A DNA stretch of 64,000 nt from Tomocerus qinae. Lineage: Eukaryota; Arthropoda; Collembola; Entomobryomorpha; Tomoceridae. Within the stretch, counting starts at the first letter, position 1; each line of letters begins with the position of its first letter. The notes beneath the pieces were generated by a model that worked only from the letters and a program-made list of their open reading frames with translations, was not told the origin of the DNA and made no database searches. Both the position numbers and the translations under genes were made by a program. Below, piece after piece: positions 3,001 through 63,523 of the stretch. The stretch covers positions 75,020,001-75,084,000 of the forward strand of contig CM034546.1 in assembly GCA_020055645.1 (NCBI GenBank), read 5' to 3'.

Positions 3001-6000
3001 TTACAGTTGTCGTTGTCAATTTTATTGAAAATTAAGTTAAGTTGAAATGAAAACTAAATAACCAGGACGTTTTTCTAGGGGGCAGATATAGTCCTCTCAA
3101 TAATCCATTACCGTTTTATAACTGCAAAAGTGTGGATATAAAGTATAAACCAATTCCATATAAAATATCTATTAAAATTCGCTAACCTTACCATGAAAAC
3201 CAGGCAACTTGAATGCTTTTGTAATGTATACATTATATTCCCTCAAAGTTCCTTTAGTGTTTTACATCAATTTGCAAAATCAAAAAATAAATTCCAAATC
3301 ATATGCATAAATATTATTAAAAGTTTATTTAGGCACATTACAATTCTGATTACCGGTATGCTTTTCCAAAGGGTACAGATAGTTCCCCCAAAAGTAAAAT
3401 ACCGTTTTATATTTGAAAATATATGGCAGTAAAACATAAACCAAATCATTTAATAAAAATACTTTAAAAATTGTTAGTGATACAATAGAGACCAGGGAAC
3501 CCGTATGTATTTGTAATGTTTACATTATACTCATACAAAATTACGATACTGTTTAACAACGATTACAATGGAAGTAAAAACTATTTACAGTTGTCGTTGT
3601 CAATTTTATTGAAAATTAAGTTAAGTTGAAATGAAAACTAAATAACCAGGACGTTTTTCTAGGGGGCAGATATAGTCCTCTCAATAATCCATTACCGTTT
3701 TATAACTGCAAAAGTGTGGATATAAAGTATAAACCAATTCCATATAAAATATCTATTAAAATTCGCTAACCTTACCATGAAAACCAGGCAACTTGAATGC
3801 TTTTGTAATGTATACATTATACTCCCTCAAAGTTCCTTTAGTGTTTTACATCAATTTGCAAAATCAAAAAATATATTCCAAATCATATGCATAAATATTA
3901 TTAAAAGTTTATTTAGGCACATTACAAATCTGATTACCGGTATGCTTTTCCAAAGGGTACAGATAGTTCCCCCAAAAGTAAAATACCGTTTTATATTTGA
4001 AAATATATGGCAGTAAAACATAAACCAAATCATTTAATAAAAATACTTTAAAAATTGTTAGTGATACAATAGAGACCAGGGAACCCGTATGTTTTTGTAA
4101 TTTTTACATTATACTCATACAAAATTCCGTTACTGTTTAACAACGATTACAATGGAAGTAAAAACTATTTACAGTATTCGTTGTCAATTTTATTGAAAAT
4201 TAAGTTAAGTTGAAATGAAAACTAAATAACCAGGACGTTTTTCTAGGGGGCAGATATAGTCCTCTCAATAATCCATTACCGTTTTATAACTGCAAAAGTG
4301 TGGATATAAAGTATAAACCAATTCCATATAAAATATCTATTAAAATTCGCTAACCTTACCATGAAAACCAGGCAACTTGAATGCTTTTGTAATGTATACA
4401 TTATACTCCCTCAAAGTTCCTTTAGTGTTTTACATCAATTTGCAAAATCAAAAAATAAATTCCAAATCATATGCATAAATATTATTAAAAGTTTATTTAG
4501 GCACATTACAATTCTGATTACCGGTATGCTTTTCCAAAGGGTACAGATAGTTCCCCCAAAAGTAAAATACCGTTTTATATTTGAAAATATATGGCAGTAA
4601 AACATAAACCAAATCATTTAATAAAAATACTTTAAAAATTGTTAGTGATACAATAGAGACCAGGGAACCCGTATGTATTTGTAATGTTTACATTATACTC
4701 ATACAAAATTACGATACTGTTTAACAACGATTACAATGGAAGTAAAAACTATTTACAGTTGTCGTTGTCAATTTTATTGAAAATTAAGTTAAGTTGAAAT
4801 GAAAACTAAATAACCAGGACGTTTTTCTAGGGGGCAGATATAGTCCTCTCAATAATCCATTACCGTTTTATAACTGCAAAAGTGTGGATATAAAGTATAA
4901 ACCAATTCCATATAAAATATCTATTAAAATTCGCTAACCTTACCATGAAAACCAGGCAACTTGAATGCTTTTGTAATGTATACATTATATTCCCTCAAAG
5001 TTCCTTTAGTGTTTTACATCAATTTGCAAAATCAAAAAATATATTCCAAATCATATGCATAAATATTATTAAAAGTTTATTTAGGCACATTACAAATTCT
5101 GATTACCGGTATGCTTTTCCAAAGGGTACAGATAGTTCCCCCAAAAGTAAAATACCGTTTTATATTTGAAAATATATGGCAGTAAAACATAAACCAAATC
5201 ATTTAATAAAAATACTTTAAAAATTGTTAGTGATACAATAGAGACCAGGGAACCCGTATGTTTTTGTAATTTTTACATTATACTCATACAAAATTCCGAT
5301 ACTGTTTAACAACGATTACAATGGAAGTAAAAACTATTTACAGTTGTCGTTGTCAATTTTATTGAAAATTAAGTTAAGTTGAAATGAAAACTAAATAACC
5401 AGGACGTTTTTCTAGGGGGCAGATATAGTCCTCTCAATAATCCATTACCGTTTTATAACTGCAAAAGTGTGGATATAAAGTATAAACCAATTCCATATAA
5501 AATATCTATTAAAATTCGCTAACCTTACCATGAAAACCAGGCAACTTGAATGCTTTTGTAATGTATACATTATATTTCCTCAAAGTTCCTTTAGTGTTTT
5601 ACATCAATTTGCAAAATCAAAAAATAAATTCCAAATCATATGCATAAATATTATTAAAAGTTTATTTAGGCACATTACAATTCTGATTACCGGTATGCTT
5701 TTCCAAAGGGTACAGATAGTTCCCCCAAAAGTAAAATACCGTTTTATATTTGAAAATATATGGCAGTAAAACATAAACCAAATCATTTAATAAAAATACT
5801 TTAAAAATTGTTAGTGATACAATAGAGACCAGGGAACCCGTATGTATTTGTAATGTTTACATTATACTCATACAAAATTCCGATACTGTTTAACAACGAT
5901 TACAATGGAAGTAAAAACTATTTACAGTTGTCGTTGTCAATTTTATTGAAAAATAAAGTTAAGTTGAAATGAAAACTAAATAACCAGGACGTTTTTCTAG

Positions 6001-20080: not shown

Positions 20081-20906
20081 TCATCTACCCAAACGGGGAA
20101 TTGACATAAAGCATCCTTTCGGGTTTCCCGGTCTCCTTAGACCAAATGCAGATCGAACATTTTTGTAAATTTCGAATCGTTTATTAACCGATGGAAAAAG
20201 TCCGTTGCATTCTGCTGGGCTAATTGCTTTGGTTGTGGCTCCAAACTTTCCAGAGCGTCCGCCATAATGATGAACGTTTCTGGCCCAGAACCAAAATGCT
20301 GCTGCCCAGGCTATTGTTTCGTTGGTAGCTACAAGATCAGGTTGGTGTACAAGACGATGATCACCAAATAATTCCTCGGATGCTTTCTTGTAGTTCAAAC
20401 AACCTTTCAAGTGAATATATCCCCTACCGTAGTAATATTGTTCAGGATAATCACAGTCTGAATTTCGGTAGTGAGTGGGGCAGTTAGATTTGGCACAATT
20501 AACTTCCCTTTTATCTTTAAGGCCATTTGTTTCATACAAAATCTGCGCTAGAATCATAGCGGCCTCTTCTTTTGTTTTAATGCGACCAATTGGCAGTTGC
20601 GTAATGAACAATTTATATTGTCCAAATGTTGCGGGTGAGTAATTATTAGAAACTACTGCGTCGCTGAATTCAAGAAACGAAATTTTTACGTGACCTAAAT
20701 TAAAAAAGGATTTGATTAATAAATAAGTTTTACAACCAGGGAAGTAGGAACTATATAGTTCACAGATGAAATATTGTTAATGTTATTGCATAATAAATTT
20801 TTTACTTCCAGTTAGAAAGTTAATTTGTGTTACCTTTGGTCTCAGTTGAACAAGAAACAGTGATGACAGTTATAAACAAAATACGAGCTGTTCTCAATGG
20901 TATCAT
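20081..20906 (-). CDS. secreted GH19 chitinase-type protein (paralogue 1)
   Basis: Two exons, 20906-20834 and 20694-20081, join GT-AG in phase to give 228 residues. Residues 1-19 are a signal peptide (MIPLRTARILFITVITVSC), so the product is exported. The rest matches glycoside hydrolase family 19, which hydrolyses beta-1,4-GlcNAc polymers. Glu79 in ILYETNG is the expected general acid, Glu88 in KDKREV a likely general base, followed by YYYGRGYIHLKG. IAWAAAFWFWA matches the second GH19 signature apart from Trp for Phe and a final Ala. Paired cysteines (NCAKSNCPT, NSDCD) suggest disulphides. The start codon was chosen because it opens the signal-peptide exon, about 115 bp below a TATA box. Possible roles are digestion, remodelling or defence; the sequence does not decide. 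Confidence 0.88.
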
Positions 20907-24777: not shown

Positions 24778-25595
24778 TCATTTGCCTATACGGGGAATTG
24801 AAGATTTTTGGCATCCTCCTGAACTACCAGGTCCTCTTAGACCGAATGCAGATCTTACATTTCCATAAACATCAAATCTTTTTTTGGCCGATGAATGTAC
24901 TCCTTGGCACTCTTCAGGACTGATTGCTTTAGTTGTGGCCCCGAATTTTCCAGAACGACCTCCGTTGTGATGAACGTTTTTACGCCAAAACCAAAATGCA
25001 GTTGCCCAAGCTATTGCTTCATGGGTAGCCACAAGATCTGGTTGGCTAACAAGACGATGATCACCAAATAATTCCTCGGATGCTTTCTTGTAGTTCAAGC
25101 AGCCTTTCAAATGAATATATCCCCTACCGTAGTAATATTGTCCAGGATGATCACAGTCGGAATTTCTGTAGCGAGTCGGGCAGTTAGTTTTAATACAATC
25201 GACTTCCCTTTTTTCTTTGAGTCCTCTAGTTTGGTACAAAATCTGGGCAAGGATCATAGCAGCCTCTTCTTTTGTTTTAACATGTCCATGTGGTAGCTGA
25301 GCTACGAAAAGTTGATACTGAGAAAATGTTGTTGGCGAATAATTGTTTGAAGTTACAGCGTCGCTGAATTCAAGGAACGAAATTTTCACTCTGGCTAAAT
25401 AAAATAAATGCCAAAATTAATTCTAATGGAGTCTCAACATTTAAAATTTTGAAAATAATAAATAGCTTCAATACTAGTAATACTTTTATAATTGAAAATT
25501 AATAAGGCAAAAATAATCTTACCTGTGGTTTTCTTTGCACATGAAATGGTGACAAACACCAAAACTAATGTAGTTGCAAGGCTGATGGTTGCCAT
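24778..25595 (-). CDS. secreted GH19 chitinase-like protein, catalytic Glu changed to Gln (paralogue 2)
   Basis: Exons 25595-25523 and 25394-24778 give 229 residues with the same intron position and phase as the neighbouring paralogue. A signal peptide (MATISLATTLVLVFVTISC) is followed by a full GH19-type domain: YYYGRGYIHLKG, the WATAFWFW signature region, and conserved cysteines. At the position of the general acid the codon is CAA: ILYQTRG instead of ILYETNG, so residue 79 is Gln, while Glu88 (KEKREV) is kept. Known GH19 mechanism predicts loss or strong reduction of hydrolysis, so this may be a chitin-binding or regulatory relative. Reading frame and promoter are intact, so it is not an obvious pseudogene. 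Confidence 0.87.
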
Positions 25596-45660: not shown

Positions 45661-46989
45661 TCCCCTAATTTGCACAACCTGGCACGAATAGACTCCACAT
45701 GCTACGATTCGTTGGTGTTAGGCGAGGTGGCCCCAGGGAAACTGGCCCCCCGGACACCTGGCCCCATGGCAAGTGGCCCTATGGATAGCTGGCACCAAGT
45801 GGGAGGAGCTTCCGTGTATAGTCCGAGCTTATCGAAAAGCTCGTTAACTTCCCTCAATCCCATTCCCAATCTATGTACTGGCCCTCAGAAGGGCCATCAC
45901 GTCGTCCCATGCTAAGTCCGTCGGCCCAGCATGTGAACCGACGGACTTAGCATGAAAACCGACGGACTTAGCATGGGACGACGGACTTAGCATGGGAACC
46001 GACGGACTTAGCATGGGAATCGACGGACTTAGCATGGGAACCGACGGACTTAGCATGGGACGACGGACTTAGCATGGGCCGACGGACTTAGCATGGGAAC
46101 CGACGGACTTAGCATGGGCCGACGGACTTAGCATGGGAACCGACGGACTTAGCATGGGACGACGGACTTAGCATGGGCCGACGGACTTAGCATGGGAACC
46201 GACGGACTTAGCATGGGACGACGGACTTAGCATGGGAACCGACGGACTTAGCATGGGCCGACGGACTTAGCATGGGAATCGACGGACTTAGCGTGGGACG
46301 ACGGACTTAGCATGGGCCGACGGACTTAGCATGGGAACCGACGGACTTAGCATGGGCCGACGGACTTAGCATGGGAACCGACGGACTTAGCATGGGCCGA
46401 CGGACTTAGCATGGGAACCGACGGACTTAGCATTTGCCGACGGACTTAGCATGAAAACCGACGGACTTAGCATGGTACGACGGACTTAGCATGGGAATCG
46501 ACGGACTTAGCATGGGAACCGACGGACTTAGCGTGGGACGACGGACTTAGCATGGGAATCGACGGACTTAGCATGGGAACCGACGGACTTAGCGTGGGAC
46601 GACGGACTTAGCATGGGCCGACGGACTTAGCATGGGAACCGACGGACTTAGCATGGGCCGACGGACTTAGCATGGGAACCGACGGACTTAGCATGGGAAC
46701 CGACGGACTAACTTAGCATGGGAATCGACGGACTTAGCATGGGAACCGACGGACTTAGCATGGGACGACGTGATGGCCCTTCTGAGGGCCAGTACATAGA
46801 TTGGGAATGGGATTGAGAGAAGTTAACGAGCTCTTCGATAAGCTCGGACTATACACGGAAGCTCCTCCCACTTGGTGCCAGCTATCCATAGGGCCAGGTG
46901 TCCGGGGGGCCAGTTTCCATGGGGCCACCTCGCCGGACACGGATTCGTTTGTGTTTACGTGAATAGGTTAGGTTATACAAATTAGGGGA
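45661..46989. mobile_element. foldback-like inverted-repeat element enclosing a 19-21 bp minisatellite
   Basis: The outer ends are inverted (TCCCCTAATTTG at 45661, CAAATTAGGGGA ending 46989). Inside them lie inverted arms of about 200 bp: GGCGAGGTGGCCCC at 45721 against GGGGCCACCTCGCC ending near 46934, continuing through GCACCAAGTGGGAGGAGC, CAATCCCATTCCCAATCTA and GGCCATCACGTCGTCCCATG. The centre (about 45940-46765) is roughly 40 head-to-tail copies of CGACGGACTTAGCATGGG plus a 1-3 base joint (A, C, AAC or AAT). No transposase is encoded. A 13/14 direct repeat (GATTCGTTGGTGTT / GATTCGTTTGTGTT) lies inside the outer ends, so I do not take it as a target duplication. Confidence 0.85.
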
Positions 46990-51420: not shown

Positions 51421-51603
51421 AATTTGCATTGGTCATTTTAATTATAATAACATTTTAAATAAAACAATTTTTTGAACATCAAACATCAGACACTGGCTAG
51501 ACGCCTCGTACGAAACCAGTAAAACTAGCAGCCAAATAAATATTCTGAGTGGCTATTCTGAATGGTGAATGAGCCAATTCGATTGCGAATGAGGCTGAAT
51601 TTA

Positions 51604-51728
51604 GGCAGCGGTACCTCGTCGCCGGTGTTGCCGGTACACATTGTTGCCAAATCATTTTTTTACCGGCGACACCGGCGACACCGGCGACACCGGTAACACC
51701 GGCGACACCGGCAACACCGGCGACACCC
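51604..51728. repeat. GC-rich palindromic repeat with 9-bp CCGGCGACA units
   Basis: It starts GGCAGCGGTACCTCGTCGCC, passes through a spacer (TTGTTGCCAAATCA) and ends in about seven CCGGYRACA units. The same sequence, with the spacer inverted and both ends complete, is at 63425-63523. The left flank GCTGAATTTA is shared by both sites. Confidence 0.6.
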
Positions 51729-52251
51729 TAATCTGATTGCCTCCAATGCTGCTAAACCTAATATAAGACAGCTTAAAGGCGTTCACCCACACAACACACT
51801 TCTCGCAGCAAGCGTCTAGCTTCAAGCAGCTAGCAGGTTTTTCCAATTCTGCTGCTGCATGATCCCACCTAAAAAATGCGTAATTACATACACTATTAGT
51901 ACGCGCCAGAAAGAAGCAGCAGAAAGCTAGATGGTAGCTGCAAGCTGCGTCTTCAAGTAGGTGGGATCACCCAACGCGGAAAATTCTTGAGTCGACTCAC
52001 CACCACCACATAACTGTGTTTGCTGATGTGATAATCCAATTGTGCACGATTTATCAGTAATTATTATTGCGGTTGACATTCCCTATCTCTTTACTCGTCA
52101 TTGTTCAGTAAGTCAAAGTTTTCGTCAATGAATATATGTTAGATAATAAGCATTTATTTATTTATATTTTTTTCTTAGAACGCGACAGAAGATCTTGTAG
52201 TAGAATCTAAAGACAGTCTGTATAATTAGGGATAAGGAAGAAGAGAGAAAA

Positions 52252-53450
52252 ATGGGTAAGTTATAATTATTTGAGTCGACTCGATCAATTGTGAAAGCGA
52301 TAATTGCGATTATAATTAATATTTACAGCATCCTCCACTCAATGTGGAAACTGTGGAAGCACAGATGGCCATTTACGTTCCAGCTGTCCTTACCCAAAAA
52401 GGGATTCTTTGGATCATTGGCATGCTGCGAAGAAACAATTTCGAAGAGAGCACCCAGAGGAAATCCGGAAGCTACGGGGAAAAAAAGAGGAAAATAAAAG
52501 GTGGCAAGACGAAGGAAAAACTATTCCAGTAAGGAACTTTGTATACTTTCTATAAAATAATTATATTATAAACAGGAACAATAAATATATATAAATAAAA
52601 ATAATAATGTGTATAAATTTTTGTTGTGTCGACACAAAGATATAAAAATTGAATTTCAAATTCTTTTATTTCAGTTCTGCATACTAAATGAAGCAATTAG
52701 CCACATGTTGCAGATTCTGTACGATCTTTCCAATGAATTGGATGTTTTGGGTCGTCCCAAAGAGTGGAAGGAAGTAAACCAAAAGCTCGACAGTCTTTTG
52801 CCACTAATTCGCGAACTGGCCAACAACGGAAAAGGGGTATGTATTTAATCAAACACAATTATTACTTAATATTACAATAACCGTTGTCTAAAACATTTTT
52901 GTTATTGATATAGTTCTTGTTTTATGGCCGCATCAAGAACATTGCAGTTGACGGAGATATTTTTATGTCCAGACTTAGTGATCTGCAGGAAAGGCGGGAC
53001 GTCCTTGTATACCGAGTCAAATCCTTTGTGAATGGGAAACTGGGAAAACTGGCTAGTGTCAATGAAAGGTATTGTACATTTATGTGGGTCGACCCTATCA
53101 TAATTTAGTAATGTCTAATTTATTGATTGTTCTTGCAAATATAGGAATGATCCCATTAGTTTCCTTCGATTTGTGTATGAGAATCATCCACCAAGAGGGC
53201 AATATTCTTTCAATGCAGAAATGCTTAATGGGTCGACCCTGAAGAAATATTTAAAGATGGCTTTGTTGCACTACCATCCGGACAAACAGGCCGGTTTTCA
53301 AGTGGAATGGCAATGCATATGTGAGCTATTATTATATGCTTAATTTTTATAGCTATTCTATTTATTTTATCATCTAATATATTTAATTTCTGTTTACTAG
53401 GTGAAGCTATCAGTCGGTGCCTTACGGTAGCATATAGGCGATTTCAATAG
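52252..53450 (+). CDS. Harbinger-element accessory protein: zinc knuckle plus J-domain-like C-terminus (copy A)
   Basis: Exons 52252-52255, 52329-52528, 52675-52836, 52914-53068, 53145-53320 and 53401-53450 give 248 residues. The first exon is only ATGG. Residues about 7-21 form a CCHC-type knuckle (CGNCGSTDGHLRSSC; five residues rather than four between the second Cys and His), followed by a basic helix (HWHAAKKQFRREHP). Near the C-terminus LKKYLKMALLHYHPDKQ has the HPD motif and preceding helix of a DnaJ J domain, which stimulates Hsp70 ATPase. Compared with copy B, one C is missing before the end, so the frame stops at TAG directly in front of a GGGTCGACCC palindrome and lacks B's last ~17 residues. 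Neighbours suggest a role in transposition, but that is inference. Confidence 0.75.
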
Positions 53451-53816
53451 GGTCGACCCTTTTTGTTGTTTTCCATGACTTTTATTTAGGAATTGATATT
53501 TTGCTTATAAAAAATGTGGAATGGTGAAACTCAATCAGTGTAATTTGTGTTTTATTGCTAAAAATAAAATAAAAGGCTGCTAAAGTTGGATTGAAAGACA
53601 GACAGACAAATGGAACTGATTTATTTGCTCATCATCCGAATTTCCATTAATAGTATCATCAGAAATGACTATAAAATCTAAATATCAGTAGTAGTGAAAT
53701 GAAATATTTTGTACTATCCGCCAACATGTTATAGAAATTGCAATGCCACATTTAAGTATCTGCATCTCTCTTATTTCTGTGCAACGTATTGACCTGGGGT
53801 TCGTCACAGGTCCGCC

Positions 53817-55352
53817 ATGGTAAGGTTATTTTAGTTGATCGAATAGGTTGACAAACATGATTGACATTAAATTTAGTAGGTCGACCTAATAATAATACTT
53901 TAACATGATTTTTAGGTGATGGGGAAGAAAAGAAAACTGCTGACGTTGTTAATGCTAAGAAAAGCAATTACAAAACAGAAAAAACGGAAATACTGGGTGC
54001 ATCCTATTTTTCAAAATCGGCGTATTGATGGTGAACACGTCAAGCTTGACGAAATGCGTAATAAATACCCGGATCGTTTTGCAGCGTATACCCGGATGTC
54101 GCCAAACACATTTATGAAACTGTTATCTCTGGTAGGGTCGTCCCTAATGAAACAAGATACTAACTGGAGAGAAGCTGTACCTGTTCGAATTAGGCTTTAC
54201 GTCATTTTGAGGTAATTCGATTGTAAAAAGGAAAAACTATTATCTAAATGGTTTTCTTTTATGCGTAGGTATCTGGCAACGGGTGACGGTTTCAGGTCAA
54301 TTTCAACGAGCTTTAGTTTAGGCTACACAACAGTTTGGAAAATAGTTCACCAAGGCCTTCCAATAATTTGGAATATTCTTAAGGATGTCTATGTTAAGGT
54401 ACTATAAATCAAATAAAAATATGAGGTCGACCTTCAAGATTAATTTTGAGTATTTATTTTAGTTTCCTTCTACTGATGACTGGGGAAGAATTGTTGATGG
54501 ATTCTACGATAAATGGAATATGCTAAATTGTCTTGGCGCCATCGATGGCAAACATATAGTCATGGAGGCCCCCCCCAATTCCGGATCACTGTATTACAAC
54601 TACAAGGGGACGTTTAGCATTGTTCTTCTTGCCACTTGTGATGCAGAGTATAATTTTACTACAATTGACGTTGGAGGTTACGGCAAACAAAGTGATGGAG
54701 GAATTTTCTCTGGGTCGACCCTAGGGCAAAGGTTAACTGCTGGAACCTTAAACATTTGTGGGCCCCGAAACCTTCCTCTGACCACAACCCCCATGTCATG
54801 TTATTTTGTCGGTGATGAAGCATTTCCTTTATCAGCAAGACTGATGCGTCCATACCCTGGCAGGGGATTGAATACTCAAAAACGAGTGTTTAACTATCGG
54901 TTATCAAGGGCCAGACGATGCATTGAAAATGCTTTTGGCATATTAGCATCACGTTGGCGAATTTTTCGAAGACCAATCGCAGCCGAGCCAAAGCAAGTTG
55001 AGAACATTGTTTTAGGTAAGTTAATGTAATTGGAGCCGTCTCCCTGTCTTTTGGAGCTATAGTAATCTAGTTTTTTATAATAGCTTGCGTCGCCCTACAC
55101 AATTTCTTAAAGAAGGAAGAAATGAACGGTGATCCAACAGAACGCTTCTATAATCCTGTAGGCTTTGGAGACGACTCCATGGAAGCGAATGGTGAATGGC
55201 GAAACGAAAGTCCTCCATCTGGGCTCATCAATGCCAGACCCATATCAGTTTCAGCTCAGGAAAGGGCTTCCAAACAAATGAGGGATAATCTTATGGACTA
55301 TTTGTTAAATCAAGGTGCTGTGGATTGGCAGTGGTCTAAAATAAATGCTTAG
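53817..55352 (+). CDS. PIF/Harbinger (HARBI1-like) DDE transposase, copy A
   Basis: Exons 53817-53819 (just ATG), 53916-54211, 54269-54398, 54463-55015 and 55084-55352 give 416 residues with no frameshift. It opens basic (KKRKLL) with KYWVHPIFQNR, then the helix-turn-helix-like region TRMSPNTFMKLLSLV through GYTTVWKIVH. The catalytic core is present: Asp in GAIDGKH, Asp in VGDEAFPL, Glu in RCIENAFGILASRWRIF. It would cut and rejoin element ends in the nucleus; Harbinger transposases normally need a Myb/MADF-like partner, and such a gene lies just downstream. Palindromes fall in introns 1 and 3 (class III) and in exons (class II, encoding GSS and GST). Probably active or recently so. Confidence 0.87.
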
Positions 55353-55522
55353 GATTTATTATACAGAAAGAGCCTATTCTAAATTGTGTAAAGTTAAATG
55401 TATTGTTGAGTAAACAAACAGAAATTGTAAACTGGCAATAAATGTACATTCTGTAATATAATTTATTAGATATAACATATTACTTAAACTACATTTTTAA
55501 CTACTTGAACTACATTTGCTAT

Positions 55523-56751
55523 CTATACTTTGTTTCTAATTACTGATTGCTGAGTCGACTCATTGGAGGCAGTTTGATTTTCATACGTATGAATGGGGTA
55601 CACAATTTCGTACAACAATGACGAAATTCTTAACATAGCATACTCAGCAGTTTGAAGTGGTACGCTCCTCAATCTATTACATATTGTCATTCCGAAATGG
55701 TAAAACTGGTCCTTAACTTCTTCTGGTTCTTCAAGCAACTTTATTATCTTTTCATTAAGCAGTGCTTCGTTGGAATCCGATTTTCTTTTTCGTACCTATT
55801 CATCCACAAAAACATTATTAAACTCAAATTCTATTGTTAAAGATGTCAATTACTTTTTTAGTTAGGTGTAATTACTCTTCTCGTTGAGGGAGTCGACTCC
55901 TTTCTAGCCTCTTCCTCCTGTAAATAACATCGAGATATTATGATTAAAATATTTGAAATTGTTCATAGCATTTACGATGTATTCAATATAAATGGATGAT
56001 ATTGCTCACATTGAGGTTTGCTTCATCTGCTACTGCATTTTCGGAACTGTCATCAGATGGAATTTGTGGATCTGCGCATTGATTGTCTTCTGTTGGAAAG
56101 TTTGATTGCGTGCTGGAACAGAAATTAAAATAAATTTGGTTGAAACCATTAATATAATAATTTTTACGAACATATTATCTCTCACTTTTCATTCTCCTCA
56201 GTAAAAGACGACAAAACCCTCTCCATTGCGCTGTAGTAGGGCCACGGCTTTTTGTTATTACTTCCGTCTCCACTTTTACCTTTAAGCATTCGCTTTACTT
56301 TGTAATAGTAATCCCGCAGTGTCTTCCATTTTTTTCTGCACCACGTCCCTGTGTCGACACAATATTTTATTATCACATTTATAAACAGCAATAATTAAGT
56401 CCCTGATGCTCTTAAAAATATATTATTGATAACTTTCACACTCACCATCTACATCCTTTCCTAAAACCTTCAATCCAGTGGCAATTTCATTCCAAGCGTC
56501 ACTGATTACATCCCTTTTACTATGCTTTGGATCCCTGGAATTGAAAAGAAACGTGCGTGACTCAACTTTTCTGATCAATTCAAAAGTTGAATTGTCTTCT
56601 TTTCCATCCTCCTGGTCGACCTGGCTTTGGAAATGACCGTCGTTCTCGTCATGTTCATGTGACTATAATTTTAAAAATATATACAGAGGCCATTTTTTAG
56701 AAGTAATAACAATTATTTTAATAAAAATGTTGTCGACACAATTCTCACCAT
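55523..56751 (-). CDS. MADF-BESS DNA-binding accessory protein, copy A
   Basis: Exons 56751-56749 (just ATG), 56662-56446, 56348-56186, 56112-56010, 55917-55876 and 55795-55523 give 266 residues in phase. Residues about 27-125 are a MADF (Myb/SANT-like) domain: FELIRKVESRTFLFN, SDAWNEIATGL, GTWCRKKWKTLRDYYYKVK, KPWPYYSAMERVL. An acidic Ser-rich middle follows. The last exon has a BESS-like helix (QFYHFGMTICNRLRSVP). Such proteins in Harbinger systems bind element ends and import the transposase. Class I palindromes are in frame in the last two exons (KESTPS and NESTQQ) and class IV palindromes are in introns 1 and 2. It converges with the transposase gene, with 170 bp between their stops. Confidence 0.82.
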
Positions 56752-57506
56752 GATTTATCCTCTTGCACAAATCAAAAACCGATGGAATAGCTTGATAAAT
56801 TAGTTTATGACTTGGAAAACGCGATATACAGGCAGTTTCGGCCTGTTCAGAAGAAGCTTCTAGTTTTTTGTCGGCGCGTAAAAGTTTTTCGCCGCTTGAG
56901 CAGAAAAAGTCGCAGTGGAATCACTCGCGCGTTTTTACGCTTTCTCGAAATAAACATCGACCGAAAGAGAAAAAAAGCGGCAGCAAAAAAAATGCTGCCG
57001 CTGCAAACTGCTGGTCCAGTGTAATCAGATTTGCTGCGTGCAGCTTGCTGCTTTCGGCGTGAAGCGTGTCAATGGAATTAGCCCTTAAAGCCTTTCACGC
57101 ATATAACTCGCTTCCTACAGCAAGCTTCTTGCTTTTTCCATCGTGCGTTTTCTCCGCTAACTGTCGCTGTGTGATCCCACTTAAAAAACTGCGTGATTGC
57201 ATAAAATTTAAGTTTGCGCCAGAAAGAAGCAGCAGAAAGCTAGATAGTAGCTGCACACTGCGTCTACGAATAGGTGGGATCACCCAACGCGGCAAGCTGC
57301 TACCGAAATTATTGTGTCGACACAGCTGTTCTAGTTTTTGATCATTCCATCCATTGCCGTCCAACTCAATATAGTTCTCCGGCTTTAAAGAGCCATTAAA
57401 TATTAAGTAATTCTGATTTTAATTACAATAGACGCGCACATCGGCCGCTTTTTGTAGGTAAACAGCAAGCTGGTCATCGGTAGAGTATTCTGAGGAGGGT
57501 AATAAA

Positions 57507-58747
57507 ATGGGTAAGTAAATAATTATTTGAGTCGACTCAATCAGCTATGATACCGAATCATTATATCCCTAATTAATATTTACAGCATCGAGTCAATGTG
57601 GAAACTGTGGAAGTCAAGACGGCCATTTCCGATCCAATTGCCCAAAACCTAAAAATTATTCATTGGAACATTGGCACGCAGCAAAGAAACAATTCCGACG
57701 GGAGCATCCGGACGAAGTGAGAAAATTACGTGAAAGAAAAGAAGAAAACAGAAAGTGGCAAGAGGAGGGAAAGACTATACCCGTAAGAAAATCTATTTAC
57801 ATACAAAATAATCATAAATATATATATATATATATATATAATAAAAAAGTATATTAAGTTCTGCTGTGTCGACACAAAGATATACAAATTGAATTATATA
57901 TTTATTATTTCAGTTCTCCTTATTGAATGCAGCTACATGCAACATGTTGCAAACCTTGTACGATCTTTCACAAGATTTGGACATTTTGGGTCGTCCCATA
58001 GAGTGGGAGGCAGTCAACAACGAACTGGACTCGCTTTTGCCTCTAATCCGAGAAATTGTTAACAATGGGAAAGGGGTATATATTTCAACAAGGTGATTAT
58101 TATTGAATTTAGCAATAATGGTTGTTCAAAATGTTTTTTTGTTGTTCATGCAGTTTTTGTTTCAAAATCGCATCAAGGATATAGTTGATGGAGACATTTT
58201 TGTCTCCAGACTTAATGATCTGCAGGAAAGCAGAGACGAACTTGTGCAGCAAGTAAAGTCTTTCGTCAATGGAAAACTGGGCAATTTGGCGCGTATGCAT
58301 GCAAGGTAATTTTGCAGTTATGTGGGTCGACCCTTAACGTTGGTATAATTAAAGTCTAATGATGTTATTGTCCTTGTAAATATAGGAGAGATCCCGTAAG
58401 CTTCCTTCGCTATGTTTACGAGAACTACCCCCCAAAATGCAAATTCACATTCGATGCTGAGCAGCTCAATGGGTCGTCCCTAAAAAAATATTTATTGAAA
58501 TCTTTGTTGCACTATCATCCTGACAAACAAGCCAATTGCCAAGCAGACTGGAAGTGCATATGTGAGACATTACTATATGCATATAATATATTATGGTCAA
58601 ATTAATTAATAATTCATTTAACAAATATTGCTTTTTTGATTTGTAGGCGAAGCAATCACAAGGTGCCTTACGGATGCATTTTCTCGATTTCCAATAGGGT
58701 CGACCCTCTTTAGCTCGCCTGAGGAAGCGTTTACTGATATCCGATAA
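57507..58747 (+). CDS. Harbinger-element accessory protein: zinc knuckle plus J-domain-like C-terminus (copy B)
   Basis: Exons 57507-57510, 57586-57782, 57914-58075, 58154-58305, 58386-58561 and 58647-58747 give 263 residues with no break, the only gene of copy B that stays open. The knuckle reads CGNCGSQDGHFRSNC; the J-like region reads LKKYLLKSLLHYHPDKQ. The C-terminus runs on past the point where copy A stops, through a class II palindrome read as GSTL, to FTDIR. Intron 1 has a class I palindrome and intron 2 a class IV palindrome, as in copy A. That the HPD helix is kept while flanking residues differ suggests selection on the J-like part. Confidence 0.75.
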
Positions 58748-59059
58748 AATTGATTAATTTGTGTTTAATATATTTATCATTAGTAAATGTATATGAAGTA
58801 TAATTTCTATGCAAAATAAACTACAAGCCTATAAATGGACATGGATCTGATATTTGCCTTGTTTATCATATACATAATATTATCATTAATAGTATCATCA
58901 GATAAAACCTAGATGAAATATTTTATACTATCCGCCACAAAATTTATAGCAAAAATCATTTTACTTTTTGCCTATACCAGATGAAAAGAAAAGCAAATAG
59001 AGTCTCTGCAACCTTTTGACCGGGATTGAAGTTAATAATCACAAGATAACTGGTTCAAT

Positions 59060-60589
59060 ATGGTAATGTATTTTTTGTTGAACAAGTATTTTTGAAACAT
59101 AATTGACATTACAGAGTAGGTCGACCTAATAATAATTATTACGTAGTTACAGGTTAGTGATAAAAAGAGAAAAATTTTAAAGTTGCTTTTGCTGAAACGC
59201 TCAACTACGAAAAACATAAAGCGCAAATACTGGGTCCATCCAATTTTCCAAAATCGAAGTGTTGATGGCGAACACATCAAGCTGGACGAAATGCTTAAAA
59301 AGTACCCGGACCGCTTTGCAGCTTATACCCGGATGTCACCAAACACATTTATGAAGCTGCTGTCTCTAGTAGGGTCGTCCCTAATGAAGAAAGATTCTAA
59401 CTGGAGAAAAAGCTGTACCGGTTCGAATTAGGCTTTACGTTATTTTGAGGTAATTCATTTCTAAGTTCATTTGTTCATTTTAAAATTATTGTATACGAAT
59501 TTCTATTATTTGTAGGTATCTGGCAACCGGTGACAGCTTCAGGTCTATTTCAACCAGCTTTAGCTTGGGCTACACAACCGTTTGGGAAATTGTTCACGAA
59601 GGCCTTCCAGTCATTTGGAAAAAGCTAAAGGATCTCTACGTGAAAGTAATAATCAAATAAAAAATAAGGTCGACCTTATAATAATTTTGAATGTTTATTT
59701 TAGTTCCCTTCGACAGAGGAATGGGGAAAATCGTGGATGGATTCTACGATAAGTGGAACTTCCTAATTGTCTTGGGTCTATCGATGGTAAACATGTAGTA
59801 ATGGAAGCTCCCCCAATTCCGGATCACTGTATTTTAACTACAAAGGAACTTTTAGTATTGTTCTGCTTGCCACGTGTGATGCGGACTACAACTTTACATC
59901 AATAGACGTAGGAGGTTACGGCAAACAAAGTGACGGAGGAATTTTCTCAGGGTCGACCCTAGGACAGAGATTAGCTGCAGGAACTTTAAATACTTGCGGA
60001 CCCCGATATCTTCCTTTAACCACAACGTCTATGCCATGTTGTTTTATCGGTGATGAAGCGTTTCCTTTATCTACAAGGTTGATGCGTCCTTACCCTGGGA
60101 GGGGGTTAAATACTCCGAAGCGAGTATTTAATTATCGTCTTTCCAGAGCAAGACGATGCATTGAAAATGCTTTTGGCATTCTAGCATCACGTTGGCGAAT
60201 CTTTCGGAGACCGATCGCCGCAGAGCCAAAGCAAGTTGAAAACATTGTCTTAGGTAAGCTATACAATTTGAGTCGACTCTCGAATTTTGGAAGGGAATGT
60301 AATCTTACTTTATCTTATAGCTTGTGTTGCGTTACACAATTTCCTGAAGAAGGAAGAAATGAAGCATGGACCTGCTGAACGGTTTTACAATCCTGTTGGG
60401 TACGGAGACGACTCCATGGAAGCAAATGGTGAATGGAGAAATGAACACCCTCCTTCTGGACTTATTGATGCTAGGCCTATATCGGTTGCAGCGCAGGAAA
60501 GGGCTTCCAAGAAAATGAGGGAGGATTTGATGAATTATTTTATGGATGTGGGTGCAGTGGATTGGCAACTGTCTAAAATAAATGCTTAG
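59060..60589 (+). pseudogene. frameshifted PIF/Harbinger transposase, copy B
   Basis: The ATG is again at the very end of exon 1 (59060-59062), followed by exons starting 59153, about 59517, 59704 and 60322. Compared with copy A there is one extra A in the stretch after NW (near 59407) and single-base losses near 59730, 59770 and 59815, so no full protein can be read. The catalytic-region segments (CFIGDEAFPL, RCIENAFGILASRWRIF) and the C-terminal exon are otherwise well kept, which points to recent inactivation. Confidence 0.8.
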
Positions 60590-60765
60590 TATAGCGATGA
60601 AAGCATTTGTGTACAGAAATCATTTAATCTATACTGAGTGTAAAATAAATTGTAAATAACACAAATTGCAACAAAGACGTAAATTTATGTATATTCCTTT
60701 ATACTATTTATTAGATTGTAATTCTTTACACCATATTTTCATACATCTAGTACAGCTTTAAGGAA

Positions 60766-62015
60766 TTATGGATTATTTTGAGTCGACTCATTGGAGAGGT
60801 TGTTTTTCCCAAGTACCCATTGGGTACATTATTTCGTATAACAAGGATGAAATTCTCACCATTGCATACGAAGCAGTTTGTAAGGGTACGTTTCTCAAGC
60901 TGTTACAAATTGTCATACCGAAATGGTAAAACTGGTCTTTTACCTCTTCTGGTTCTTCAAGCACCTTCAGTATCTTTTCATTTAGTACTGCTTCGTTGGC
61001 ATCAGCTTTTCTTTTACAACCTAATCATCCAATAAACAGATATTAGTAAAACAAATGCTAGTTTCAATGAATTTATAAATGTTAATTGCTGATTAGTTTG
61101 CTTACTTTCCTAGTTGATTTAGGAGTCGACTCTATTCTTGCTCCGTCTTCCTGTAAACGACATTTAAATATTATGATTAAATTATCTGCTATTGTAGCCA
61201 TAATTATTGTTTGTATAATATATATGCAATTGGGTGATATTCGTACATGGTAACTTGCTCCATCGACAACCCCATTTCCGGAATTTCCATCAGATGAATT
61301 CTCGGGAACTGAGGATTGATTGTCGTCAACAATGGAGTCGTCTCCCGGAAAGTTTGATTGAGTGCTGGAACAAAATTTAAATACATAGGGTTAAATCCAT
61401 CATTATAATAATTTCGCAAATATTACTTCCCTCTCACTTTTCATTTTCCTCATTACAGGAGGACAACACCCTGTCCATGGCGCTATAGTAGGGCCATGGC
61501 TTTTTTGTTAGCTCCGTCTCCACTTTTACCCTTTAGAATCTTCTTTACTCTATAATAGTAATCTCGTAACGTCTTCCACTTCTTTCTGCAATAGTCTCCT
61601 GTGTCGACACAATATTTTAGTATTGGATACAAATAGTATTTTATAATTAAGTATATTACGTATATTGTAATAATATATTTTACGCTTACCATTCACTTCC
61701 TTTTTTGCAAACTTGAGTCCAGTAGCGACATCATTCCAGGCGTCACTGATCACATCCCGTTTACTATGTCTCGGATCACGACAGTCGTAAATAAAAGGAC
61801 GACTCTCAACCTTTCGGATTAATTCGAAAACTGAATTGTCTCCTTCCTCTTCGTTTCCAAAATCCTGGACGACCTGGCTTTGAAACTGACTGTCGTTGTC
61901 CTCAATTTCGTGTGTCTAGCGATATACAAAAGAAAAAGATGTATATTCTGGTCATTTAGAAATTATAGTTGTTAATAAAACAGTTAATAATTTGTGTCGA
62001 CACAATTCTCACCAT
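60766..62015 (-). pseudogene. frameshifted MADF-BESS protein, copy B
   Basis: The ATG|GT exon at 62015-62013 and the MADF exon (FELIRKVESRPFIYD, SDAWNDVATGL) are intact and continue into DYCRKKWKTLRDYYYRVK. An A-run one base longer than in copy A near 61505 shifts the frame and creates a stop at the KPWPYYSAM position. The last exon also starts with a one-base difference. Class I palindromes at 61123 and 60779 still read as EST in the ancestral frame. It ends near the TAA at 60766. Confidence 0.7.
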
Positions 62016-62589
62016 TCTGATCCTCCTGGAAAATTCAAAAAAGAACGGACGATATGTAGTTGATATGTTGATAATCATAAAAAAGCGACATACAAGCAGT
62101 TTCAGCTTCGTCGGGACAAGCTTCTTGTTTTTTGTCGGCGCGTAAAAACTTTTTGCCGCTTCAGCAGAAACAGTCGCAGTAGAATCACTCACGCGTTTTT
62201 ACGCGTTTCTGCAAAAAACAGCGGCAGTAAAAGAAAAAAAGCTGCAGCACAAAAATATGCTGCCGCAGCTAACTGCCTGTGCTATACAATCACTTTTTCT
62301 GCCTGACGCTTTCATCTTTCATCGCGATGGAGCCCAGTGCGATAACCCCATAAGATTTCTAGATTGAAGGAAAACCAAAAGCAAATTTTCAGAGTGTTTA
62401 CAATAAATAAGTACTGAAAAAATGACAATTCCTAGCCCACAAAACAAAACACTGCGATTATAACTAAACTCGTCATTACTCACTGGCCGCTTAGCGCTTT
62501 TGGCTTCACACAGAAACAATAAAACTGAGAGGCATAGAAGAGAGCAACAGCCATTAGAAATGATACATTAAAATGGGCTGAATTTAGGC

Positions 62590-63419
62590 CAAGGTATCGA
62601 AAAACCCGGGTTTTTTAGGAAAAAACCCTCGACCCCGGCTTTTTGGGTTTTTTAGGGTTTTTTGGGTTTTTTGGGTTGAAGGGTTTTTTATATAATTATA
62701 GGCATAAATACAAGCCTATACTATAGTATATATAGGAAAACTACAGCTGACAATAACAACAACCATGTAATCCTAAAACTACCAGTATTTACGTCTATAA
62801 AATCAAAAATTAAGGCATAAAAATTTAATTTTTAACATGTTTTAGCACAGTTAACACGAAATATTTTTCGTGAGCACCTATATTTGATAGTGAAAAACTA
62901 TGTATTATTATATATTACTGATTAAAATGACTTTAAGAAATTCCTTCATTAATATGGAGCTTAAAGCAGTACAGTAATAAATATGTAAGTGATTAATTAA
63001 AATTCAGTATAATTATTGTTTCCACTTATGCATTCATTGGCAATTCGTAAGTAGAAGTTAATTATGTAATTAAACCAATATCTTCACGGCGATTAAAATA
63101 TATACATAAAACAAATAATCACATCACGATCTTGATGTTTATACATATTCACACGAATTACTGCAAGTATATTTTATAAAGTATAAAAGCTAAATATTTT
63201 GTTTCCACCTGATTATGCATTTGTGTACATTTTCAAATAGAAATATGACAAAGTTAGTATGTTTTGCTTATATAGATGGAGCTTTAGTGTACATTATAGC
63301 GTTTTGTAAAAAACCCAATAAACCCAATAAACCCCGGGTTTTTTAAGTGAAGCGGGGTGGGTTTTTTGCCAAAAAACCTAAAAAACCCCAACCCATAAAA
63401 AACCCGACCCACAACCCTG
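62590..63419 (+). mobile_element. hAT-type non-autonomous element with GGGTTTTTT subterminal repeats, second copy
   Basis: The 830-bp element starts CAAGGTATCGAAAAACCC and ends CGACCCACAACCCTG, flanked by the 8-bp target duplication ATTTAGGC (62582-62589 and 63420-63427). Relative to the copy at 16564 it lies in the opposite orientation. Its target is the left end of the GC-rich palindromic repeat; an uninterrupted version of that target (CTGAATTTAGGCAGCGG) is present at 51595. It has AAAAAACCC/GGGTTTTTT clusters at both ends and no coding content. Confidence 0.88.
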
Positions 63420-63424
63420 ATTTA

Positions 63425-63523
63425 GGCAGCGGTACCTCGTCGCCGGTGTCGCCGGTGTCGCCGGTAAAAAAATGATTTGGCAACAATGTGTACCGGCAAC
63501 ACCGGCGACGAGGTACCGCTGCC
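63425..63523. repeat. complete GC-rich palindromic repeat (TIR GGCAGCGGTACCTCGTCGCC)
   Basis: The 99-bp unit begins GGCAGCGGTACCTCGTCGCC and ends with its inverse GGCGACGAGGTACCGCTGCC, with 9-bp GCCGGTGTC units inside each arm and an AT-rich centre. It is related to 51604-51728. Confidence 0.75.

Follow-up and report, generated by a model that had tools for sequence, protein, structure and literature searches.

Conserved symmetric palindromes spread through PIF/Harbinger elements of the collembolan Tomocerus qinae

Background

MADF/Myb proteins are reported to bind DNA and to recruit the Harbinger transposase (PMC9710019, PMC4890758), and PMC4890758 proposes that the contact between PRC2 and ALP1, a protein derived from a Harbinger element, may have begun as anti-repression. 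VANC proteins, as described in PMC5735166, undo silencing through dense family-specific motifs. Here we describe an array of short palindromes that runs through two adjacent PIF/Harbinger elements, A and B, of Tomocerus qinae (Collembola). The elements lie in a stretch of 64,000 nucleotides (assembly GCA_020055645.1, contig CM034546.1, positions 75,020,001 to 75,084,000), referred to below as the window. The array had been noticed in a sequence-only reading of the window, which described palindromes centred on GTCGAC in four classes set by their flanks and offered a homodimeric regulator as one explanation.

Results

GTCGAC palindromes in elements A and B

Exact GTCGAC occurs 14 times in element A (51991-56732) and 13 times in element B (57316-61996); the rest of the window holds three (27700, 34625, 50655), all without a symmetric flank. 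This recount agrees with the counts and coordinates given earlier, the element bounds now being those of Table 1. About one core per copy had been expected by estimate; a first-order Markov model gives about 0.4 per copy, or 0.84 for the 10.6 kb of A and B together, against the 27 observed. No other 6-mer of the element is over-represented as strongly as GTCGAC (Poisson p ~4e-31 pooled and 4e-17 for one copy), and on these figures chance or base composition is rejected as the source of the array.

All 27 exact cores lie in palindromes of at least 8 bp and up to 16 bp. Variant centres (GTCGTC, GACGAC, GCCGTC) mark four further sites in A and five in B, in which a G-C pair stands beside the centre (TCGT, ACGA or CCGT) and the arms are symmetric, bringing the array to about 18 sites per copy. 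The earlier figure of about 17 palindromes per element holds with these variant centres counted (in B a short-armed one at 61868 comes in addition), not with the 14 and 13 exact cores. Stems with an NCGN centre were excluded from the sites where something other than a G-C pair stands beside the centre or where the arms belong to no class (54542, 55585 and 55692 in A; 59578, 60058, 61302 and 61323 in B); the stem at 61323, TTGTCGTCAA, and the site at 61337 are 15 bp apart. The four arm classes described earlier are real, except that the A sites at 56615 and 56732 fit none of them.

Eight of the 18 A sites fall in coding exons, eight in introns and two beyond the coding spans. Introns, exons and untranslated regions all hold sites, and the terminal 210-350 bp of A and B hold none, which bears out the view that the array is spread through the body of the element and not its ends. 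A search of 51600-62500 against Rfam at the gathering threshold gave no match.

Symmetry of the arms and evenness of spacing

The first base pair beyond the core is complementary in 27/27 exact sites, where 9.5 would be expected if the two sides were independent; the second pair is complementary in 25 (17.9 expected) and the third in 18 (10.5 expected), with no clear excess of complementarity past the third base. G-T pairs are absent from the first two arm positions and occur three times at the third. The variant-centre sites provide no evidence for symmetry because they were picked by their symmetric arms. Over 17 fetched family loci including flanks, the first arm pair is symmetric in 210 of 215 GTCGAC and both pairs in 196, many of the 215 coming from near-identical copies.

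Because the arms vary between sites and match within them, some rule must enforce the symmetry; independent half-sites would drift into mixtures. Isolated half-sites, those outside the sites, are about as frequent as they are in the remainder of the window, and thus the whole symmetric unit is what is kept. Such symmetry could come from a symmetry-dependent dimer, from several class-specific dimers or from pairing of RNA strands. The earlier idea of a homodimeric regulator is narrowed accordingly: a plain homodimer with independent half-sites is disfavoured, the first arm position of A and B showing no mixed arms.

The sites are also evenly spaced. Intervals between the 18 A sites range from 117 to 461 bp, at about 280 bp per site. 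With 18 sites each, the spacing has a coefficient of variation (CV) of 0.36 for A and 0.32 for B versus 0.92 at random (5e-5 and 0 of 20,000, respectively); with exact cores only it is 0.50 in A (p 0.0075) and 0.24 in B (0 of 40,000). A and B are related, so the two tests are not independent, and the near-identical B copies are likewise not independent samples. Clustering of equal arm classes along A is weak (p 0.049) and is not relied on.

Conservation among lineages A, B and C

The 17 orthologous 12-mers of the two copies have 192 of 204 bases in common (94%). Outside the sites A and B agree in 587/863 bases of introns (68%) and 2102/2672 of coding sequence (79%), and in 75/143 (52%) at the fourfold sites of gene 2. 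Position by position, identity is 15-17 of 17 across the core and two bases on each side, and 13-14 of 17 at the third base. Eleven of the 14 A cores are unchanged in B, versus 20% of 6-mers overall.

A third lineage, C, is represented by an element adjoining a B copy elsewhere in the genome (L027:483-5649; 72% identical to A and 71% to B). Seventeen site positions are common to A, B and C. At 17/17 of them the three lineages have an identical inner arm pair, and at 15/17 both pairs are identical, the exceptions being C at 53452 and A at 56732. The centre is broken in C at 53088 and 56732; one site is restricted to A and two to B and C. Core substitutions fall mainly on positions 2 and 5 (5 and 10 of 51 cells), with one each at positions 3 and 4 and none at 1 and 6. 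Synonymous divergence (dS) among the three lineages is 0.76-2.6 or saturated. The sites are strongly conserved while their flanks diverge, despite near-saturated synonymous sites, and the suggestion that other family members keep them is upheld.

A sister-family copy with a GGCGCC core

One 4-kb copy of a sister family, D (L061), is about 60% identical in its transposase exons (63% and 58%); other D-family copies lie at about ten places in the genome. It holds no GTCGAC and five GGCGCC versus 0.16 expected, all five forming perfect 12-bp palindromes with variable, symmetric arms (CTT, CCT, CCT, CAA, CCA). The excess has p 7.6e-7, or ~5e-5 once corrected for the 64 possible 6-bp palindromes, with symmetry not yet counted. 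Elsewhere in the fetched loci GGCGCC is never symmetric past one base. Judged by eye, the D sites lie before the transposase start, in introns or at an exon-intron border (one, at 3554), and some of these places look equivalent to A sites. This comparable array with a different core suggests that the elements may tag their whole length for a recognising factor. The arm classes are therefore no general rule, and a code of four classes of GTCGAC is too narrow a description, D using GGCGCC with other arms.

The D copy has matches to the transposase and to the MADF protein, and its match to gene 1 is doubtful (E 0.07). The candidate factor common to both kinds of element would therefore be the MADF protein or the transposase.

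Controls across the genome

Pattern counts were taken over the 334-Mb genome in 115 contigs. GDGTCGACHC shows no genome-wide excess, with 883 places versus 952 for the reversed control pattern, and the proposal that the palindromes are peculiar to these elements thus survives comparison with the genome at large. Among the first 50 places listed (sorted by eye), the arms are symmetric in 14 of 15 inside L009, L026 and L028, versus 11 of 35 elsewhere, the latter matching the chance expectation of one third. None of thirteen more distant Harbinger loci (L048-L060, 45-49% identity) has the array: they hold 0 or 1 GTCGAC per ~3.5 kb, and no 10-bp palindrome core occurs more than twice in them, AT-only cores set aside. 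A truncated derivative of ~0.45 kb (L028, ~3190-3642), with a C-like left end and a right end that was not found, retains two intact palindromes, TGAGTCGACTCA and TGTGTCGACACA.

Extent and copies of the elements

Elements A and B align with 3764 of 5133 bases equal (73%). The 3-bp TWA target duplication appears as TAA around A, around B in the window and around a further A copy, L013; it is not resolved in every one of the 12 further B copies. For A, a candidate imperfect terminal inverted repeat (51794-51830 / 57033-57069) has a local score of 19 versus a shuffled maximum of 16; the score of B, 11, is inside the shuffled null. The first 53 bp of A match the left end of lineage C and, inverted, its right end at 79%, as expected of short terminal inverted repeats.

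L013 is a near-identical copy of A, one base shorter (blastn identity 100.0% after rounding), that lies ~136 kb off and has flanks unlike those of A. Since such a copy exists with other flanks, A is probably young. Seventeen other genomic places were fetched via one 14-mer: 12 are B-type (98.5-99.7% identical to B), three are A-type (L013 and the shortened L009 and L023) and two are unrelated. L011 and L012, chance 14-mer matches without similarity to A, were dropped before the counts, as were L029 and L030, also without similarity to A. The shortened A-type copies L009, L023 and L026 are 97.5-97.9% identical to A over 3439-3494 of its 5309 bases and hold nine GTCGAC each within the fetched stretch. 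The remainder of the window holds no further copies (blastn, E 1e-3).

Recent tandem duplication is rejected as the cause of the likeness of A and B, each having its own TAA duplication and near-identical copies elsewhere. In L016 and L027 a B-type copy adjoins a C-type element in opposite orientation, so that side-by-side insertion within the family, seen in the window, is found again.

Genes and their relatives

The elements combine a Harbinger transposase (DDE_Tnp_4) with a second gene that has a domain of the Myb/SANT/MADF type, as PIF/Harbinger elements do, and carry a third gene (Table 1). All three genes are under purifying selection among A, B and C: the ratio of nonsynonymous to synonymous divergence (dN/dS) is 0.08-0.20 in 8/9 comparisons with computable dS (gene 1, 0.08-0.14; gene 2, 0.09-0.11; gene 3, 0.18-0.20). 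The transposase frame of B is broken by two TAA within the matched stretch. In all three A genes the first intron starts right after the start codon or one base later (52252-52255, 53817-53819, 56749-56751). By eye, the gene 1 protein has a CCHC zinc knuckle at its N end and an HPDK J-domain-like motif near its C end; Pfam gave no match and the Hsp40 match is weak (E 0.53). The C end of the gene 3 protein we take to be BESS-like; Pfam did not call BESS.

The transposase exon has eight relatives among proteins from public sources (jgi, ena, lgn, ncbi), at 73-82% identity; one homologue of gene 1 (P0121) was found, and none of the MADF protein at E 0.01. At the exonic site 54714, (G/R)STLG is kept in 8/8 close relatives, with RSTL in P0005, P0006 and P0015, and ST stands there in 0/12 more distant aligned rows. 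Some predicted proteins of relatives read on into the next intron. All four intron tails that are long enough (P0002, P0004, P0007 and P0121) are compatible with a palindrome that matches the A site in class and place, for which chance gives 0.35-1.45% each; the tails of P0001, P0003 and P0015 (1-2 residues) were left out, and those of P0005 and P0006 (4 and 5 residues) are too short for a site. A has no site in intron 3, and the tail that P0121 reads through this intron is incompatible with one; this control says little because chance compatibility is only 1.5%. On the other side, P0121, hand-read in another frame, seems to be without the gene 1 exon 5 site. Searches of viral and prokaryote contigs (viral_contigs, genome_contigs) for DNA of relatives gave nothing.

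Table 1. Coordinates of the elements, their palindromes and their genes in the window
Feature	Position	Strand	Remarks
Harbinger element A	51777-57085	+	~5.3 kb; TAA target duplications at 51774-51776 and 57086-57088
Harbinger element B	57089-62350	+	73% identity to A; TAA on each side
A site GAGTCGACTC	51989-51998	.	upstream of gene 1
A site GAGTCGACTC	52273-52282	.	gene 1 intron 1
A site GTGTCGACAC	52626-52635	.	gene 1 intron 2
A variant site GGGTCGTCCC	52749-52758	.	gene 1 exon
A site GGGTCGACCC	53086-53095	.	gene 1 intron 4; P0121 encodes NWVDP here
A site GGGTCGACCC	53230-53239	.	gene 1 exon; B and C have GGGTCGTCCC
A site GGGTCGACCC	53450-53459	.	gene 1 stop codon
A site AGGTCGACCT	53878-53887	.	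gene 2 intron 1
A variant site GGGTCGTCCC	54135-54144	.	gene 2 exon
A site AGGTCGACCT	54424-54433	.	gene 2 intron 3
A site GGGTCGACCC	54712-54721	.	gene 2 exon, encodes GSTL
A variant site GAGCCGTCTC	55033-55042	.	gene 2 intron 4; P0002, P0004, P0007 fit GAGTCG(A/T)CTC
A variant site GAGACGACTC	55168-55177	.	gene 2 exon
A site GAGTCGACTC	55552-55561	.	gene 3 last exon
A site GAGTCGACTC	55890-55899	.	gene 3 exon 5
A site GTGTCGACAC	56351-56360	.	gene 3 intron 2, beside 3' splice site
A site TGGTCGACCT	56613-56622	.	gene 3 exon 2; 8-bp palindrome only
A site TTGTCGACAC	56730-56739	.	gene 3 intron 1; 8-bp palindrome only
Copy B array	57314-62003	.	exact cores and variant centres
B exact cores	57316, 57531, 57868, 58326, 58699, 59120, 59669, 59952, 60272, 60782, 61125, 61603, 61996
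B variant centres	57990, 58473, 59374, 60407, 61337		also GACGAC with short arms at 61868
Gene 1 of A	52252-53450	+	6 exons, 248 amino acids; spliced translation
Gene 2 of A	53817-55352	+	5 exons, 416 amino acids; transposase, DDE_Tnp_4 E 3.5e-31
Gene 3 of A	55523-56751	-	6 exons, 266 amino acids; MADF_DNA_bdg E 9.1e-16 (provisional splice)

Other features of the window

Both elements are enclosed by a perfectly complementary 85-nt inverted repeat (51604-51688 / 63439-63523, 11,750 nt apart), partly built of a 9-bp satellite of the CGACACCGG type. Telomere-like runs of the TTTTTTGGGT type and its complement lie at 62640-62690 and ~63300-63420. A minisatellite with 41 copies of a 21-bp unit occupies 45928-46765, and two related GH19-chitinase-like reading frames lie on the minus strand at 20081-20776 and 24778-25416, Pfam having been run on the first only.

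Discussion

In our reading, the element encodes a dimeric, sequence-specific DNA-binding protein, most likely MADF from gene 3, for which the array provides the sites, with anti-silencing or activation as the likeliest use; the probability that we give this falls somewhat short of one half (about 0.45). The element-encoded dimer would bind the dispersed palindromes. At one site per ~280 bp the protein, perhaps with recruited transposase, would cover the whole element, and coverage of the whole element would limit recognition to copies of the same family. Binding may then keep the element active, whether by anti-silencing or by activation, for which VANC and the Polycomb antagonism of ALP1 are the analogies; a chromatin role is favoured because the body rather than the ends would be covered. 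A suitable reader would have to be common to A-C and D, read the palindrome as a unit and be family-specific, and the MADF protein would fit best. Whereas the array, its symmetry, its spacing and its conservation are observed, we infer that a protein binds, that MADF is the binder and what binding does.

Several observations weigh against this reading. A homodimer with independent half-sites should accept mixed arms (GAGTCGACCC), and none occurs at the first arm position in 27 sites. The MADF protein is conserved at 72-73% of amino acids, below the transposase at 84-87%. Restoring the omitted stems makes the spacing less even, if still beyond chance: with all added, the CV becomes 0.49 for A (p 0.0006) and 0.51 for B (p 0.00035), and with 61323 and 61868 alone added to B it is 0.41 (p 5e-5). 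Family D rests on one 4-kb copy whose core was chosen after looking, and a D-like fragment in L021 (71% identical to L061) lacks GGCGCC and holds no palindrome in the matching intron. P0121, hand-read in another frame, seems to be without the gene 1 exon 5 site.

A broader form of the idea extends across the clade, where evenly spaced palindromes with a family core (GTCGAC in A-C, GGCGCC in D), free arm identity and enforced symmetry might amount to a family identity code. Symmetry itself would be read, by a protein dimer or by self-pairing of strands, and the core would have been exchanged in concert at many sites at the family split. We offer this tentatively and hold it to be doubtful.

The sites might instead act as marks at the RNA level, as transcript stems with a UCGA-like loop or by self-complementary pairing with a copy of the same class, perhaps handled by the zinc knuckle of gene 1. 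Strict complementarity of arms whose identity varies is a signature of pairing, the variant centres (TCGT, ACGA, CCGT) retain the outer stem, some with long arms (TTTGGG-TCGT-CCCAAA, TAGGG-TCGT-CCCTA), the sites lie in or near gene bodies with the termini free of them, and gene 1 does encode a CCHC knuckle as read by eye. The stems are just 3-6 bp, however, and both loop orientations are present; D has an array yet a doubtful match to gene 1, and Rfam gave nothing. That no wobble pair occurs at either inner arm position is a mild further counterpoint. RNA marks seem unlikely.

Less likely again are sites for host DNA-binding proteins, either one protein per arm class or an architectural or insulator factor, accumulated by the element for expression or chromatin shelter. 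The several arm classes, nearly fixed per position in A, B and C (15/17), would fit class-specific homodimers. Against this, GDGTCGACHC has no excess across the host genome, its arms outside the elements are symmetric only at the chance level, and a sister-family copy of the same genome uses a different core. It is also improbable, and slightly more so, that the transposition machinery simply has more of its usual recognition sites here. Harbinger Myb-like proteins are described as binding short motifs and recruiting the transposase, and the short truncated L028 has kept two intact sites; yet the known sites are described as subterminal, whereas here the terminal 210-350 bp are empty and the sites spread evenly through exons and introns, and L028, its right end not found, need not be mobile. 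A by-product of protein coding, or chance, can be dismissed: some exonic sites do encode GST, EST or GRP, but 10 of the 18 A sites are non-coding, the intronic sites contradicting this origin outright, the exonic ones lie in different reading frames, ST at 54714 is absent from all 12 outgroup transposases, and chance is excluded.

Comparison with known systems

If binding is shown, cut-and-paste transposons would have one more kind of array for self-recognition and, as far as we know, no animal-type Harbinger element with one has been described before. One could then test by what means a transposon protein distinguishes its own long copies from other genomic DNA, and how such a code shifts from one sister family to another. 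That symmetry is enforced on variable arms is a puzzle of DNA recognition in its own right. Our literature search, with most subscription papers outside its scope, found no description of such an array.

The dimer-initiation loops of retroviruses are self-complementary palindromes whose sequence varies while their symmetry is kept, with a CCHC protein nearby. There is one per genome RNA, placed in a loop, whereas here about 18 sites, many of them intronic, run through three genes on both strands.

In the VANDAL elements a family-specific short motif is dense in one transposon family and rare elsewhere, as in the elements described here. Related VANDAL families use different motifs, read by the element's own protein, according to PMC5735166 and PMC10398659; the sister-family copy D likewise differs in its core, and a reader encoded by the element is predicted here. 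As those sources describe them, VANC motifs are non-palindromic (YAGTATTAY), share one orientation and form tandem repeats in non-coding regions, whereas the sites here are symmetric and evenly spaced, with 8 of 18 in A lying in coding exons. VANDAL elements are Arabidopsis elements that combine a MULE transposase with a VANC gene, in place of the Harbinger DDE_Tnp_4 and MADF found here.

Harbinger3_DR, as presented in PMC9710019, is a PIF/Harbinger element with a transposase and a Myb/SANT/MADF protein that has a short motif, much as we predict for binding here. It is described with one 9-bp subterminal motif, in contrast to the ~18 symmetric sites in the body of A and B. With the canonical two-gene PIF/Harbinger elements with MADF described in PMC9710019, the present elements share DDE_Tnp_4, MADF, the TAA duplication and short imperfect terminal repeats; unlike them, they carry the palindrome array as well as a third gene, whose protein has a zinc knuckle and an HPDK motif.

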